A stretch of 64,000 bases of DNA, taken from the NCBI RefSeq assembly GCF_004365175.1, contig NZ_SOCE01000001.1, forward strand, positions 3,913,403 through 3,977,402. The letters run 5' to 3'. This DNA is from Kribbella voronezhensis. Lineage in GTDB: Bacteria; Actinomycetota; Actinomycetes; Propionibacteriales; Kribbellaceae. A program made the position numbers and the translations under genes. Below the pieces are notes generated by a model. That model saw only the letters and a list, made by a program, of their open reading frames with translations. It was not told the DNA's origin and made no database searches. Positions 15,871 to 22,485 of the stretch are shown piece by piece (position 1 is the first letter of the stretch; every line of letters starts with the position of its first letter).

Positions 15871-17187
15871 TCAACTCGTCAGCGGGACGACCTGGTTGGC
15901 GCGCAGCGCCTCGTAGACCTCAGGGTTGTACCTGGCCAGCGTCGCGCGGGCGCGGCGCCGGTACCGCAGGATCTGCACCGTCCCGAGACCCCACAACACG
16001 TACTGGAACGTCAGCGCCCACTTGAAGTCGCCGATGCCTTGCGGAGCGCCACCGGACGACGCGTCCAGCAGTACGCCGACCATGCCGATGCAGATCAGCG
16101 TGGCGATGAACCCGCCGGTGTTGACCATCCCGTTGGCCGCGCCGAACCTGGTCGCCGGGTTGAACGTCCGCGCATAGTCCAGCCCGAGCATCGATCCGGG
16201 ACCACCAGCGGCCTGTACGACGATCAGCAGGAGCAGCACAGGCATCGGGGCACGCCCGGGCCAGAGCAGTACTACGGTCCACATCGTCACGGAGCCCGCG
16301 ATCACCGCCAGCACGATCCACGAGCGATAGAAGGGGAACTTCGCGGCGTACCGGCCGACCAGGGGGCCGTAGCAGAGGCCGGCCAGGACGGGCAGGATCA
16401 GCATGGAGGCCGCTGTCGTCGGCGCGAGCCCCTCGCCGCGGACCAGGAACGGGTAGCCCCAGAGCAGTCCGAAGGTGCTCCCGGAGAAGCTGGTGGTGAA
16501 GTGGGTCCAGAGTCCGAGTCGGGTGCCCGGCTCCTTCCAGGCCCGGCGCAGGTTCCGGCGAACCTCGGTGAGCGATTGCTTCGTCCGGTGCAGCGGCTCG
16601 TCGTACGGGCTGTTGCGGAGCAGGAAGATGACGGCCAGGCCGGTGACCAGGCTCAGTACGCTCGCGCCGGCGAAGGTGGCGGTCCAGCCGAACGCGTTGA
16701 ACGCAGCGGCCATCGGTACGGTCGACACGATCGCGCCGATACCACCGAGCATTCCGGTCGCCTGCGACATCACCGGCTGGCGAAGCGCCGGGAACCACGA
16801 CATCACGACACGCAGGACGCTGATGAAGACGAGCGCGTCGCCGACGCCCAGTACTGCGCGAGCGGCGAGCGCGGCTGGGTAGGAATCGACCAGGCTGAAG
16901 GCGGACTGCGCGACGAAGAGCAGGCCGGATGCGGCGATCAGCAGCCGCCTGGAGCCGTAGCGGTCCAGCAGGATGCCGACTGGGACCTGCATGGCGGCGT
17001 ACACGGTCAACTGGACGACTGTGAAGCTGGCGAGGGCGGACGCGGAGATGTGGAACCGCTCGGCCGCTTGCAGGCCGGCGACGCTCATGGAGCCGCGGTG
17101 CAGGACGGTGACGAGGTAGGTGAAGACAGCGGTCGCCCACACCGCCCAGGCCCGCCGACCGCCCAGGGGGAAGAGGAGCTCGGTCAC
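15871..17187 (-). CDS. MFS transporter
   Basis: 438 residues, 12 predicted membrane helices. The loop motif 'GILLDRYGSRRLLIAASGLL' between helices 2 and 3 is the MFS signature A. The N-terminus ('YLVTVLHRGSMSVAGLQAAE') resembles the ACS/NNP-like MFS uptake carriers. GTG 17187 overlaps the stop of the GntR gene by 4 bp, so regulator and transporter are made together. An FCD-type GntR partner suggests an organic acid or sugar acid as substrate, which is inference. Confidence 0.87.
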   Translation of the reverse strand: MTELLFPLGGRRAWAVWATAVFTYLVTVLHRGSMSVAGLQAAERFHISASALASFTVVQLTVYAAMQVPVGILLDRYGSRRLLIAASGLLFVAQSAFSLVDSYPAALAARAVLGVGDALVFISVLRVVMSWFPALRQPVMSQATGMLGGIGAIVSTVPMAAAFNAFGWTATFAGASVLSLVTGLAVIFLLRNSPYDEPLHRTKQSLTEVRRNLRRAWKEPGTRLGLWTHFTTSFSGSTFGLLWGYPFLVRGEGLAPTTAASMLILPVLAGLCYGPLVGRYAAKFPFYRSWIVLAVIAGSVTMWTVVLLWPGRAPMPVLLLLIVVQAAGGPGSMLGLDYARTFNPATRFGAANGMVNTGGFIATLICIGMVGVLLDASSGGAPQGIGDFKWALTFQYVLWGLGTVQILRYRRRARATLARYNPEVYEALRANQVVPLTS

Positions 17188-17915
17188 TGCACGCCCCGCA
17201 GATCTGTCGCGGCGACGTGGATGTGGGCGATGACGAGCTCGCGGAACCGCTTGGCGCTGTTCCCGCAGAGGGCGTCGATCATCTCCTGGTGCGCGGCGAC
17301 GGACTTGTCCATCCGGGCCGGCTGCACCTCGATCCCCGGGACGCCCATCCGGACCTGGCGATCGCGGAGGCTGTTGTAGAGCTTGGCGAGGATCTGGTTG
17401 CCGGCGGCACCGACGATGGCCTCGTGGAAGGCCCGGTCGGCCTCCAGGAAGCTCTTCGCGTCGCCGGCCTTCTTGTGCTTGCGCATCTCCTGGACCAGCG
17501 GGACCAGCTTGTCGACCAGTTGCTTGCGTCGCGGCCAGACCTTGGCGGCGGCGTGCGTCTCGATCAACTCGCGCGCTTCGAGGACGTCGTTGATCTCCTG
17601 CGGCAGGACCGGCAGGACCAGCGCGCCCTTCTTCGGGTACAGCTTGACCAGGCCGGACTCTTCCAGGCGCAACAGGGCCTCGCGTACCGGCGTACGGGAG
17701 ACTCCGACTGCTGTCGCCAGCTCTCCTTCGGTCAGCAACTCGCCGCCGGGGTAGACCCGGTCGAGGATCGCTGCCTTGACATACGCGTAGACGCGCTCCG
17801 CTGCCGGGATCCGCTCGGCCGCCGGACCCTCCTCGGCGACGATCCGCGCGATCTCGGTCGTCTCGTCCCCCAGCACCACCCTCGCCGGCTCTTGCTCCGG
17901 CACCCCGCTACTCAA
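17184..17915 (-). CDS. GntR-family regulator, FCD subfamily
   Basis: 243 residues. The winged helix reads 'GELATAVGVSRTPVREALLR' (about 65-85), the classic GntR recognition helix, followed by 'LEESGLVKLYPKKGALV'. The C-terminal FCD domain has the metal/ligand residues in 'FLEADRAFHEAIVGAAGN' and a late His ('VAAHQEMIDAL'). TTG 17915 follows GAGGGTGAGAG; the GTG four codons later is an alternative. It is the first gene of an operon with the overlapping MFS gene and probably controls it from the AT-rich operator region upstream. Confidence 0.9.
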   Translation of the reverse strand: MSSGVPEQEPARVVLGDETTEIARIVAEEGPAAERIPAAERVYAYVKAAILDRVYPGGELLTEGELATAVGVSRTPVREALLRLEESGLVKLYPKKGALVLPVLPQEINDVLEARELIETHAAAKVWPRRKQLVDKLVPLVQEMRKHKKAGDAKSFLEADRAFHEAIVGAAGNQILAKLYNSLRDRQVRMGVPGIEVQPARMDKSVAAHQEMIDALCGNSAKRFRELVIAHIHVAATDLRGVQ

Positions 17916-17944
17916 CTCTCACCCTCACTCATACATCTCGTATC

Positions 17945-17968
17945 TGTGTTGTATCTATCTTACACACA
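17945..17968. promoter_or_regulatory. AT-rich operator/promoter candidate for the GntR gene
   Basis: The window 17935-17968 is sharply AT-richer than its surroundings. It holds inverted repeats TGTGT (17945-17949) with ACACA (17964-17968) and TGTA with TACA inside, plus two GTATCT direct repeats. FCD-type GntR proteins bind short TnGT...ACnA palindromes, so this is the likely autoregulatory site. Confidence 0.45.
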
Positions 17969-18077
17969 TCAGGATGACGGCTCCGGCTGGTCCATTCGGT
18001 CACGTTTCCGAGCCGCTCGCCGTCAGTGAGGAGCGAACGAGCCCTGAGGGCAGGACTCCCGACCTGAAAGAGCAGTC

Positions 18078-20255
18078 ATGACCAGACATCGAACCTCCGG
18101 AGCGCCGCCGAGCCCTTCCACCGCGGGTACCTTCGCCCGCACCTACGCGCGGGTCGTGGCCGGCCGCCGGACCAAATGGGCCGTCCTCGTGCTCTGGGTG
18201 CTACTCATCGGCGTCGGCGGATCACTGGCGGCGAAGCTCGGCGACGTCCAGAACAACGAGGCGGAGACCTGGTTGCCGACGAACGCGCAGGCGACCAGGG
18301 CGGTGAAGATCGCCGAGGACTACTTCCAGGACAAGGGGCGGGTCGGCGCGGTCGTCGTCTACGCCCGCGAGGACGGCCTCACCGACGTCGACCTCGCCAA
18401 GGTGAACGCCGACCGGCAGAGGTTCGTGGCGAACTCGCTCGCGGCTGCCGACGTACCCCCGGTGACCGTCGCCGCCGATCGGAAGGCCGCGTTCCTCAGC
18501 GTCCCCGTCAAGTCGGACCAGAGCGACAACAGCGTCCTCGGCGACGGGGTGAAGCGCCTGCGCGACGCCGCCGGTCAGGACGCGCCGGCCGGTCTCGACG
18601 TCAAGATCGCGGGCCAGGCCGGAAACATCGCCGACTTCATCGATGTGTACTCCGGTATGGACGGTGCGCTGATGGCCGCCACGCTCGGACTCGTCGCCGT
18701 CTTCCTGCTGTTCACCTATCGCAGCCCGATCCTCTGGCTGATCCCGCTGCTGTCGGTCGGCCTGGCGAGTCAGGTCGCGAGCGCAGTGGTCTATCTGCTG
18801 GCCAAACATGCGGGCCTGACCGTCAATGGCCAGAGCGCCTATGTGCTGGTCGTTCTCGTGCTGGGAGTCGGTACGGACTACGCGCTGCTGCTGATCGCGC
18901 GCTACCGCGAGGAACTGCATCGACAGGAGGACCGGCACGAGGCGATGGAGTACGCGCTGCGCCGCTGCCTGCCCGCCATCACGGCGTCCGCGGCGACGGT
19001 CGGGATTGCCACGATCTGCCTGGTGTTCGGCTCGATGAATTCCACTCGGGGCCTAGGCCCGGTGGTTGCGCTCGGCGTGGTCATCGTCTACTTCGCGATG
19101 ACCACTCTGCTGCCGGCCTTCCTGGTGGTCCTTGGGCGCTGGGTGTTCTGGCCGTTCACCCCGCGCTACTCGGCGGATCACGTGGACTCGAGCGCCGAGA
19201 AGGAGCACGGCTTCTGGGCTCGCGTCTCCGGCTTCGTCGGGCGCCGGCCACGGCCGATCTGGATCGGGGCGACGCTGGTGCTGGTGGCACTGGCATTCGG
19301 AGCGATGTCGCTGTCCACCGGGCAGACCCAGGCAGAGCAGTTCACCAAGAAGGTCGATTCGGTGGCGGGCCAGGACCTGATCGCCCGGCATTTCCCGGCC
19401 GGCTCCTCCGCGCCCGCCGACGTCTACGTCAAGGACGGTGGCGCGACGGCGGCACTCGCCGTGGTCCAGCAGGTGCCTGGCATCACCAGCGCCTCGACCA
19501 TCGCCACCAAGAACGGCTGGACCCGGATCGAGGCCGTTCTGAAGGACGCCCCGGACACCCAGGCCGCCCGCTCGACCGTCGAGCACCTCCGTACGGCGCT
19601 CGCAAGCAACCAGGGTGAGGCAAAGTCGGCGGTGGTCGGCGGCCAGACGGCGGTCGCCCTCGACACCTCCGATGCCCAGAGCGAGGAGGAGAAGCTCCTC
19701 ATCCCGCTGATCCTGGCGGTGGTGCTGATCATGTTGATCATCCTGCTCCGGGCGTTGACGGCGCCGCTCGTACTGCTCTTGTCGGTGGTGCTCTCCTACA
19801 CCGCGGCCGTGGGATCGGCCGCCCTGCTCTTCCACGCCGTCGGACATCCGAGGATCGACCGCGGGCTGCTGCTCTTCGGCTTCCTGTTCCTGGTCGCCCT
19901 CGGCGTGGACTACACGATCTTCTTGATGACCCGGGCTCGCGAGGAGGTCGGCAAGCGTGGTCACCGCGACGGCGTCCTCACCAGCCTCACCGTCACCGGT
20001 GGGGTGATCACCTCGGCGGGATTGGTGCTGGCGGCAACCTTCAGCGTGCTGGCAGCGATCCCGACGGTCGCCTCCCTGCAGCAGGGGCTGCTGGTCGCGG
20101 TCGGCATCCTGCTGGACACCTTCATCGTGCGCAGCCTCCTGATCCCGGCGCTCGCGCTGGAACTCGGTCCGAGGTTCTGGCGCCCCGGCCACCCCGAACG
20201 CGCGAAGGCGGATCGCTCCATCGTCTCGCCCGCGGAACCGGCGCGGCTGGGCTGA
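18078..20255 (+). CDS. MMPL-family RND-like exporter
   Basis: 725 residues. Two halves, each with a large extracytoplasmic domain followed by a helix bundle. The first bundle contains 'GVGTDYALLLIARYREEL' and the second 'GVDYTIFLMTRAREEVG', the conserved Asp-Tyr motifs of MMPL proteins that carry the proton. MMPL proteins export lipids or hydrophobic compounds across the membrane. It is divergent from the GntR gene and may share its control region. No co-transcribed partner is visible; the next gene downstream is broken. Confidence 0.92.
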   Translation: MTRHRTSGAPPSPSTAGTFARTYARVVAGRRTKWAVLVLWVLLIGVGGSLAAKLGDVQNNEAETWLPTNAQATRAVKIAEDYFQDKGRVGAVVVYAREDGLTDVDLAKVNADRQRFVANSLAAADVPPVTVAADRKAAFLSVPVKSDQSDNSVLGDGVKRLRDAAGQDAPAGLDVKIAGQAGNIADFIDVYSGMDGALMAATLGLVAVFLLFTYRSPILWLIPLLSVGLASQVASAVVYLLAKHAGLTVNGQSAYVLVVLVLGVGTDYALLLIARYREELHRQEDRHEAMEYALRRCLPAITASAATVGIATICLVFGSMNSTRGLGPVVALGVVIVYFAMTTLLPAFLVVLGRWVFWPFTPRYSADHVDSSAEKEHGFWARVSGFVGRRPRPIWIGATLVLVALAFGAMSLSTGQTQAEQFTKKVDSVAGQDLIARHFPAGSSAPADVYVKDGGATAALAVVQQVPGITSASTIATKNGWTRIEAVLKDAPDTQAARSTVEHLRTALASNQGEAKSAVVGGQTAVALDTSDAQSEEEKLLIPLILAVVLIMLIILLRALTAPLVLLLSVVLSYTAAVGSAALLFHAVGHPRIDRGLLLFGFLFLVALGVDYTIFLMTRAREEVGKRGHRDGVLTSLTVTGGVITSAGLVLAATFSVLAAIPTVASLQQGLLVAVGILLDTFIVRSLLIPALALELGPRFWRPGHPERAKADRSIVSPAEPARLG

Positions 20256-20310
20256 TGCAGGAGTCACAGGTGGCGGGTCATGGGGGCGACAGTTCGAGCG
20301 AGGAGAAGCC

Positions 20311-20744
20311 ATGAAGTTGCCCATCCTGGTGACCGGCGGCACGGGCACCCTGGGACGACTGGTCGCGCGGCTGAGCGACGCGGGCGCGCGGAAGTCCGCG
20401 TGCTCAGGGCCAGATCACCAGTTACAAGGTGACGCCAGGCTCGACCGATGACGACACCGAAATGCCGGCCGGCGCTCGGGGTGGTGGAGGCGTCCGGCCG
20501 GCGCCGGCGGGCGCTGGACGAGCCGGCCGGACGGGTGCCGGATCTGGTCGGGCCGGAGGAGACCGACGCGGTCGCGATGATCCGGGTTATCTCGAGGCGG
20601 TTCACCAGGGCGCTCGCGTGGTACCGGTGTGGATGCCGGGATCGGGAAGATTCGCTCCGGCGGGTTGCTGCCTCGAGGACCGGTGGGTTCCTACACCACA
20701 GGCCGGTCAGCTGGCAGCAGTTCCTGGCGAGAAGGCTCGGCTGA
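20311..20744 (+). pseudogene. Decayed NmrA-like NAD(P)-binding gene
   Basis: The start is intact: GAGGAG then ATG 20311 and 'MKLPILVTGGTGTLGRLVAR', the Rossmann glycine motif of NmrA-like SDRs. Homology then breaks: after 'DAGA' the expected 'EVRVLRA' continues in another frame. The C-terminal parts are found in different frames: 'YLEAVHQGARVVPVWMPG' in one and 'SWQQFLARRLG' (family ending) in another, closing at the TGA 20742-20744. Family members have about 250 residues (750 bp); only 434 bp remain, so an internal deletion of roughly 300 bp plus at least two frameshifts is indicated. Confidence 0.75.
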
Positions 20745-20751
20745 CAGTGGG

Positions 20752-20873
20752 TGTGGACAACGGGTGTCAACAGGCGAGCTGCGCCTGGATCGGCTGCTGA
20801 CTCCACAACTTGTCCACCTGTGGAGCCCGCTTGTCCACGGGTTATCCACAGGGCCTTCCACAGCTGTGGGCAA
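20752..20873. promoter_or_regulatory. Cluster of DnaA-box-like sites
   Basis: Five 9-mers match the DnaA box in 122 bp: TGTGGACAA (20752-20760, exact reverse of TTGTCCACA), TTGTCCACC (20810-20818), TTGTCCACG (20831-20839), TTATCCACA (20842-20850, exact) and TGTGGGCAA (20865-20873, 8 of 9). No AT-rich unwinding element and no dnaA or dnaN gene is near, so this is not an ordinary oriC. It lies upstream of the subtilase gene. Confidence 0.6.
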
Positions 20874-21027
20874 GGGGTTGGCGGCGGAGTGTGACAGTGG
20901 GGACTGTGGGTAGTGGGGAATGCAGGGTTTCCCGTGTCTTGGGTGGCCAGGAGTCGTTGGGGTCACTAACCGTCCTAGAGTCGGCCGGAGCGTTTCCGTT
21001 CACTCGCTGTCGCCCCGAGGAGAGAGT

Positions 21028-22485
21028 GTGTCCCGAACCTTTGGTATCCGCCGGCTGAGTGCCGGACTGGCCGTCGCCGCGTTGGCGATCACCACGGCCG
21101 GCGCTGCAACCGCCGCACAGGCGTCGCCGTACGCGGCGGCCGGCGCGACCACTGCAGCCGCCGAGCCTGGTGTGCTGATGAACTACGTGGTGAACACGAA
21201 GGCCAGTCCGGGGCATGTGCGAAAGGTCGTTGCCGCGGTCAAGGCCGCCGGTGGCACCGTGGTGCAGGCGTACGACGAGATCGGCGTAGTGGTCGCCCAG
21301 TCGACCAACCCCGACTTCCGTACCGACGTACGGGCCGGCCGCAACGGTCGCGAGGTCCAGTCGGTCGGGGCCACCCGGACCGCCGCCGTCAGCGAGGGCC
21401 CGGTCGGCTCCGCTGCCGCCAAGCTCACCTCGGCCAAGGGGATGATGGCCGGCCAGGCCGCGCCGGTCGCCGACCCGCGCGAGGCCGAGCAGTGGGACAT
21501 GAAGCAGATCAAGGCCGACCAGGCGCACGAGGTCACCGACGGTTCGCGCCGGGTGCTGGTCGGGATCAACGACAGCGGTGTGGACGACACGCACCCGGAC
21601 CTGGCGCCGAACTTCGACGCCCGCGACTCGGTGAACTGCATCAACAACGGCGTACCCGACACCACGGCCGGCGCCTGGCGGCCGACCACCAGCCCGCACG
21701 GCACGCACGTGGCCGGCACCGTGGCCGCCGCCCGGAACGGCATCGGCATCGTCGGGGTCGCGCCGGGCGTCCGGATCGCCTCGGTGAAGGTCGTGAACGA
21801 CGACGGGTTCATCTACCCGGAGTACGCGATCTGCGGTTGGATCTGGGCCGCCGAGCACCACATGGACGTGACCAACCACAGCTACTACATCGACCCGTGG
21901 GAATTCTGGTGCAAGGACAACGGCGACCAGGGCGCCGTCCAGGAGTCGGTACGGCGTGCTGTCGCGTTCGCCACCAAGAAGGGCGTGTTGTCCGTCGCGG
22001 CGGCCGGTAACTCGAACTACGACCTGGCCAACAAGACCACCGACAACGGCAGCCCGGACGACAGCACTCCGGCACCGCGCCAGATCGACAACAGCTGCCT
22101 CGACCTGCCGACCGAACTGCCCGGCGTGATCACGGTCGCCAGCACCACTCAGACGAGGGCGCGGAGCAGCTTCTCCAACTTCGGCCTGAACAAGATCGAC
22201 GTCGCGGCTCCTGGTAGCGGCATCCTGTCCACCCTTCCGGGCGGCGGCTACGGCACCATGAGCGGTACTTCGATGGCGTCGCCGCACGTCACCGGCGTGG
22301 CAGCCCTGATGAAGTCGGCCCACCCGTGGTGGACCCCGCGCGACCTCGAGAAGGCCCTCCGCAAGGAAGCCGACGACACCGCGTGCCCGACCACCCCGGA
22401 CGCCCGCTGCACCGGCACCACCGCCAACAACGCCTTCTTCGGCGAAGGCATCGCAGACGCCCTCGACGCAGTACACCGCCCCTGA
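21028..22485 (+). CDS. Secreted subtilisin-like serine protease (S8)
   Basis: 485 residues from GTG 21028, with GAGGAGAG 4 nt upstream. A signal peptide (about 1-35, ending near AQAS) is followed by a propeptide of about 120 residues that resembles an I9 inhibitor-type fold. The catalytic triad is complete: Asp in 'INDSGVDDTHPDL', His in 'SPHGTHVAGT', Ser in 'SGTSMASPHVTG'; the oxyanion Asn is in 'AAAGNSNYD'. It should be exported and self-processed, acting on extracellular proteins. Cys residues in the catalytic domain may form disulfides. The leader contains the DnaA-box cluster, and a strong hairpin follows the stop. Confidence 0.94.
   Translation: MSRTFGIRRLSAGLAVAALAITTAGAATAAQASPYAAAGATTAAAEPGVLMNYVVNTKASPGHVRKVVAAVKAAGGTVVQAYDEIGVVVAQSTNPDFRTDVRAGRNGREVQSVGATRTAAVSEGPVGSAAAKLTSAKGMMAGQAAPVADPREAEQWDMKQIKADQAHEVTDGSRRVLVGINDSGVDDTHPDLAPNFDARDSVNCINNGVPDTTAGAWRPTTSPHGTHVAGTVAAARNGIGIVGVAPGVRIASVKVVNDDGFIYPEYAICGWIWAAEHHMDVTNHSYYIDPWEFWCKDNGDQGAVQESVRRAVAFATKKGVLSVAAAGNSNYDLANKTTDNGSPDDSTPAPRQIDNSCLDLPTELPGVITVASTTQTRARSSFSNFGLNKIDVAAPGSGILSTLPGGGYGTMSGTSMASPHVTGVAALMKSAHPWWTPRDLEKALRKEADDTACPTTPDARCTGTTANNAFFGEGIADALDAVHRP

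Follow-up and report, generated by a model that had tools for sequence, protein, structure and literature searches.

This analysis indicated that a 122-bp stretch, situated at positions 20752-20873 of the window (the whole 64-kb stretch of DNA that was analysed, C1:3,913,403-3,977,402 of its own genome, G000, of 8.03 Mb), probably functions as a DnaA element of an already known type, formed by a box cluster that is itself real and conserved. We favour, with slightly more belief than doubt, the reading that this cluster is a conserved, oriC-like decoy located outside oriC, which would bind DnaA and restrain initiation in the manner of datA and of the clusters of Streptomyces and Bacillus subtilis. 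The boxes, their geometry, their conservation throughout the genus, their position relative to dnaA and their retention through changes of neighbour and of direction were observed directly. From the sequence, we infer that DnaA binds the cluster, with a strength comparable with, or greater than, that of its binding at oriC, and an effect on the timing of initiation would be expected by analogy with known systems.

The original prediction had counted five 9-mers with at least 8 of 9 matches to the DnaA-box consensus (hereafter near-boxes) within 122 bp, two of them exact, and a new 9-mer scan gave exactly the same count at 20752-20873 (Table 1). When the 64-kb window was simulated 30 times with a first-order Markov model, no cluster exceeded two near-boxes, the highest number reached. 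At least three near-boxes per 122 bp were found at four places in 882,404 sampled bases of G000, and five only here; this sample (about 11% of the genome) was made up of the window, 40 stretches of 20 kb each and two shorter ones around listed boxes, and since these last two were picked for such boxes, the sampled background can only look richer. The genome-wide count proposed with the original prediction thus refuted, for the fraction sampled, the occurrence of comparable clusters at many random places. The exact pattern TTRTCCACA occurred 106 times in the entire genome, vs 33 times for a reversed control, and was enriched around dnaA, with 23 occurrences within 300 kb vs 8.0 expected (among the 79 matches listed on C1). 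Among the 100 matches listed, at least four pairs of exact boxes lay within 122 bp of each other, including the cluster in the window and one pair upstream of dnaA. The GC content of the 140 bp around the cluster was 62%, vs 68% for the window. No direct or inverted repeats of at least 12 bp were reported in 20500-21100, and a repeat-based reading of the cluster was rejected on this basis.

The core of the cluster is a three-box module, TCCACAN6TCCACAN(2-3)TGTGGR, at a place that we call locus B. Along one strand, box III is followed after 3 bp by box II, and the latter after 2-3 bp by an inverted box I, boxes II and III being in tandem and 12 bp apart. Box II is weak in the window (6/9) and reaches 7-9/9 in most congeners, and a TTGTCCAC(G/C) box recurs in many of them 11 bp before TTATCCACA. 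When three-box arrangements were scored over 27 positions, with gaps of 2-6 bp allowed between boxes I and II, the best score was 21-26 of 27 in 37 of the 38 genomes of the genus and was reached by none of 200 shuffles in each of these 37, while in the remaining genome, G051, it was matched by 99 of 200 shuffles. The exact pattern is missing at locus B in seven of the 38 genomes, and its presence there in the others is partly by construction, since it was derived from these very sequences; the independent evidence therefore lies in its rarity elsewhere and in its place in other genera. Similarly, the conservation profile was anchored on the pattern, so that the hexamers are conserved by construction and only positions outside them count as evidence: the flanking G, T and GG beside the hexamers were present in 100% of the 28 sequences profiled.

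Table 1. Position of the DnaA boxes, the three-box module, the flanking genes and the other conserved elements in the window.
Feature	Position	Strand	Basis or remark
DnaA box TTGTCCACA, exact	20752..20760	(-)	Box scan; box also in G024
DnaA box TTGTCCACC, 8/9	20810..20818	(+)	Box scan; also in G024
DnaA box TTGTCCACG, 8/9	20831..20839	(+)	Box scan
Core box III TTATCCACA, exact, inside GTTATCCACAGG	20842..20850	(+)	Box scan, congener comparison
Core box II CCTTCCACA	20854..20862	(+)	12 bp between the starts of boxes III and II
Core box I TTGCCCACA, 8/9	20865..20873	(-)	Faces boxes II and III
Three-box module, locus B	20842..20873		Exact pattern here in 31/38 genomes of the genus
Secreted S8 (subtilase) protease, ancestral right neighbour	21028..22485, start GTG 21028	(+)	Pfam PF00082, E 5.4e-56
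GntR/FCD-family regulator, ancestral left neighbour	17184..17915	(-)	Pfam PF00392+PF07729
MFS transporter downstream of the GntR regulator	15871..17187	(-)	Pfam PF07690
Lineage-specific insert between GntR promoter and cluster	17976..20751		blastn breakpoints; absent from sister genome G024
MMPL-family transporter within the insert	18078..20255	(+)	Pfam PF03176
Conserved non-box motif TGCAGGGTTTCCCGTG / TGCAGGGTTTCCC(C/G)TG between cluster and protease promoter	20921..20936		Alignment of 19 loci
Possible -10 TAGAGT of the protease promoter	20976..20981	(+)	Conserved CTAGAGTC in the 19-locus alignment
GntR-side motif GTATCTGTGTTGTATCTATCTTAC, GTATCTCTGTTGTATCTATCTTAC-like, strongly conserved in the genus	17940..17963		Beyond the insert from the cluster

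The module was indeed rare. It was found once or twice per genome in all 38 genomes of the genus (7.4-9.7 Mb), with 69 copies in total, and its reversed-control pattern was found in none of them. Thirty-one copies are at locus B, 37 were assigned to a sister locus (37 of the 38 genomes), and a single one, in G051, lies at neither. Assignment to the sister locus was made by place and sequence. The locus was read in 12 genomes, in eight of which the module matched and its surroundings were well conserved. Its gene context was established directly in G000 and by tblastn in four other genomes, the assignment being by sequence for the rest; in G000, it is a divergent promoter between an Lrp/AsnC regulator and a PLP enzyme of Cys/Met metabolism, 164 kb from dnaA. 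The looser tandem pair TCCACAN6TCCACA gave 4-6 matches per genome, vs 0-5 for the reversed control, in eight genomes (seven single-contig ones and G000). In all eight, both loci were among these matches and shared one side of dnaA, with 151-181 kb between dnaA and the sister locus. Near-forms of the module scoring at least 21 in G000, searched for in the stretches of the 882,404-base sample and in three chosen ones, were all located at C1:3.61-3.93 Mb, around dnaA.

As the original prediction stated, neither dnaA nor dnaN is next to the cluster. The only DnaA-domain match in G000 is at C1:3,675,368-3,675,853, about 258 kb away, and the distance between locus B and dnaA was 229-291 kb in all 11 genomes, out of 13 examined, that carry both on one contig, a constancy which may be plain synteny (conserved gene order). 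Such a distance means that the cluster is not the origin. That it marks an origin, either secondary or relocated, may be suggested by the oriC-type arrangement of its boxes, but is extremely improbable in our view: in G000, dnaA has flanks with boxes of their own, including an exact tandem pair. The stated lack of an AT-rich unwinding region was also borne out, since no 50-bp stretch below 54% GC was found in 20251-21300. GC skew in the window was weak, with a sign that flickered around zero from 16 to 36 kb, a positive mean both to the left (+0.038) and to the right (+0.010) of the cluster, and no cumulative minimum at the cluster; being weak, it has by itself little weight against an origin, and in the 20-kb samples of G000 it was too noisy to locate one. 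Adjacency to dnaA/dnaN, an AT-rich unwinding element and a GC-skew switch, the usual marks of oriC, were thus all lacking at the cluster, and a relocated origin was rejected on dnaA position, GC skew and GC content.

Conservation of the locus, the comparison with related species suggested together with the original prediction, was evaluated in the genus. The ancestral layout consists of the MFS and GntR regulator genes (leftward), the box cluster and the S8 protease gene (rightward), the boxes being in a divergent intergenic region. In most congeners, 60-190 bp separate them from the GntR start. An ortholog of the GntR regulator was found in 38 of 38 genomes (G000 included), with the co-oriented protease to its right in every one (71-100% identity). 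The interval between the two genes contained two or more near-boxes, with at most one mismatch, in 37 genomes and three or more in 28; G051 has both genes and no near-box between them. A comparison based purely on DNA similarity recovered the region in 19 of 39 genomes (its own and 18 of 24 congeners) and in none of the 14 from other genera of the order, while among 77 genomes of the order the GntR ortholog was found in 25 of 25 of the genus and in two of the 52 others, at 33-43% identity.

The neighbours of the cluster had been described as a decayed gene on one side and a secreted protease on the other. The protease stands, and so does a decayed, non-coding stretch to the left, which is, however, not part of the ancestral setting. 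Alignment of the window with G024 (blastn) covers 17856-17975 and resumes at 20752, the very first base of the first box, and the 2.78 kb in between is an insert absent from G024, which contains the MMPL gene and, at its end, the short decayed stretch; the latter showed weak similarity (best E 0.006) to an intact NAD-binding gene of G019 and G042. In G000, the cluster has thus stayed with the protease and been parted from GntR by the insert, whereas in G019 and G042 it has stayed with GntR, another gene being present between it and the protease. These three cases indicate that the cluster was retained whichever neighbour was lost. Moreover, the direction of the boxes is reversed in G006, G039, G043 and G044, with the exact pattern inverted in three of these. 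On a tree of GntR proteins from 34 of the 38 genomes (G001, G014, G021 and G051, with partial or mis-started proteins, being left aside), the reversed state or the insertions required 2 changes (bootstrap range 1-2); the reversed state may have had a single origin. Since nearly all genomes of the genus keep the cluster despite changes of neighbour, it probably helps to control the time at which the chromosome is copied.

Both conserved loci are nevertheless in divergent promoters of a regulator and an enzyme, which makes a transcriptional role the main rival of the decoy reading and agrees with the regulation of a nearby gene, another suggestion of the original prediction. DnaA would then act as a transcription factor, its boxes tying expression of the GntR/MFS pair, of the protease, or of both to the DnaA level or to the replication cycle. 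We regard this as possible, though rather doubtful. The short distance to the GntR start is in line with it, as is the same layout at the sister locus in G000, where the Lrp/AsnC regulator diverges from the PLP enzyme, and none of the 37 box-bearing genomes has its boxes parted from both genes. By contrast, although the boxes are usually beside both GntR and the protease, they are separated from one of them in three of the 38 genomes (from GntR in G000, from the protease in G019 and G042) and reversed in four. Furthermore, the GntR-side motif persists in a recognizable form in G051, together with both genes but with no boxes, and the module is mainly located at oriC in other genera. This motif, beside the GntR start, is likely a GntR operator or promoter. 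On the other side, the motif at 20921-20936 is near-palindromic in many congeners and partly kept where the direction of the boxes changes, and TAGAGT is a possible -10 element of the protease promoter.

The proximity of a GntR gene also raises the question of whether the boxes are a non-DnaA element altogether, for example GntR operators that resemble DnaA boxes, and TTGTCCACGA may, in our opinion, be read as a loose FCD-type operator. This explanation appears very unlikely, as the module recurs at the Lrp-regulator locus and also, in other genera, close to dnaA, two settings that imply no GntR, and as it is a different motif that is conserved on the GntR side, also in G051.

Outside the genus, the module pattern was found in 121 of 296 genomes of the class (G000 included), usually in one copy, while the reversed control gave 0 among the matches listed. 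The position of dnaA was looked up for 80 of the other 120 pattern-bearing genomes, which allowed 83 of 84 copies to be placed (the search gave no dnaA for G211). As many as 69 of these 83 copies were within 3 kb of the DnaA domain, which identifies the module as one of oriC type. The other 14 were located 11-172 kb from dnaA (seven), on another contig (four), or in G354, G092 and G326 (three). In G354, dnaA is at the start of the contig and the copy 85 bp before its end, which places the latter at oriC if this contig is circular; those of G092 and G326 appear alike to it. The genus studied here shares the pattern TCCACAN6TCCACAN(2-3)TGTGGR with the oriC module of other Actinomycetes, and differs from them in that its exact form was found at two loci outside oriC and once elsewhere in G051; upstream of dnaA, G000 has a variant of the module with TTCACA as box I.

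Several separate observations were made during this survey. The module was away from dnaA, or on another contig, at loci L173-L182 (family f20, 10 genomes), L183 (G064) and L184 (G075); G064 and G075 belong to the same order as G000, and f20 is another family. At L173, L174, L178, L179, L183 and L184, it was near genes for a cyclophilin, a rhomboid protein, CrgA and/or a PASTA kinase (called by Pfam for L178 and L183, by eye for L173, L174, L179 and L184), and the distance to dnaA was 20-169 kb in the four of those loci with both on one contig. G000 itself has a CrgA-like open reading frame followed, about 130 bp further on, by a weaker box cluster at C1:3,610,979 (L110, about 15,979). Possibly, the crgA locus harbours a DnaA cluster that is old among actinobacteria, and our literature search on DnaA boxes with crgA found no paper. 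G325 carries the module a second time (L186, C20:492239, locus 2740), just upstream of a dnaB helicase open reading frame, which matched Pfam DnaB/DnaB_C with an internal LAGLIDADG match, possibly an intein. Two convergent box pairs side by side were observed at G004:C1:7416551-7416588 and G023:C1:2855445-2855482, about 520-530 kb from dnaA on its other side (in G004, across the contig start), and are another candidate DnaA site. Finally, G013 and G012 had extra DnaA-domain-like matches at many positions, in open frames recurring at 373, 277 and 314 aa, which are perhaps ATPases of repeated mobile elements.

Smulczyk-Krawczyszyn reportedly described, in 2006, oriC-proximal DnaA-box clusters of S. 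coelicolor, D78 and others, and Okumura is said to have described those of B. subtilis (DBCs) in 2012. As with the S. coelicolor clusters, the boxes studied here belong to an actinomycete and lie outside oriC on the origin-proximal chromosome, but none of the 27 genomes of the one-genus group f22/g30, which we take to be Streptomyces, had the three-box pattern. Like the DBCs, of which that organism has several, the present cluster is outside the origin. It resembles E. coli datA in being a non-coding cluster at a conserved distance from dnaA (11 of 11 genomes), and differs from datA, with its IHF site, in that its core is a compact 32-bp module. The sequence features of such elements were found at the cluster: several near-consensus boxes, clustered in non-coding DNA, outside oriC, in an origin-proximal and conserved position. 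Excerpts of reviews credit the origin-proximal clusters of S. coelicolor and of B. subtilis with the repression of untimely initiation (PMC5742627, PMC4585315); removal of six clusters leads to early initiation in B. subtilis, the effect of single clusters being doubted (PMC5295017). In the same excerpts, datA acts together with an IHF site to stimulate the hydrolysis of DnaA-ATP (PMC5742627), and it is a non-coding box cluster near oriC whose relative distance is conserved across strains (PMC4585315).

A different function would be that of the E. coli DARS elements, the cluster reactivating ADP-DnaA instead of acting as a sink. According to an excerpt of PMC5742627, DARS1 and DARS2 have a box I opposite boxes II and III, with equal spacing in both. 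Our box scan of E. coli MG1655, where they were located via the bioD-uvrB and rppH-mutH intergenic regions, gave, for both, a gap of 5 bp between boxes I and II and one of 3 bp between boxes II and III. Box order and the II-III spacing (12 bp apart) are thus shared with the module, with box I opposite tandem boxes II and III, but the I-II gap is 2-3 bp here vs 5 bp in both DARS, which led us not to file the module as a DARS. Its presence mainly at oriC in many Actinomycetes also fits poorly with an architecture specific to DARS, and membership was rejected on these two grounds. A DARS-like element appears unlikely to us, more so than a transcriptional one.

The favoured reading, that of a decoy restraining initiation, corresponds to the datA-like titration put forward by the original prediction. 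It is a predicted function, favoured by conservation throughout the genus, by the position relative to dnaA, by retention despite changes of neighbour and direction, and by the oriC-type arrangement of the boxes. From a mechanistic point of view, locus B would be copied soon after initiation, as would the sister locus at about 164 kb from dnaA, and their doubling would add DnaA sites just after firing. These extra sites may draw DnaA from oriC or alter the nucleotide that it carries, either of which would restrain untimely re-initiation. A broader proposal, which we put forward with considerable doubt, is that the three-box DnaA module is a portable unit of Actinomycetes, kept at oriC by many of them and present in its exact form, in this genus, at two fixed, origin-proximal loci outside oriC on one arm, where it would control the DnaA cycle, possibly via a DARS-like nucleotide exchange that goes beyond passive titration.

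In the excerpts of the literature searched on DnaA-box clusters, no description was found of this box grammar, nor of its two-copy, one-arm distribution. To our knowledge, sites outside oriC that control initiation are known from few bacteria and, in actinomycetes, only from the Streptomyces clusters. The existence in this genus of two short, conserved and precisely defined elements would offer a direct test of whether such clusters set the timing of initiation, and a box grammar common to oriC and extra-oriC sites can be searched for in any genome.
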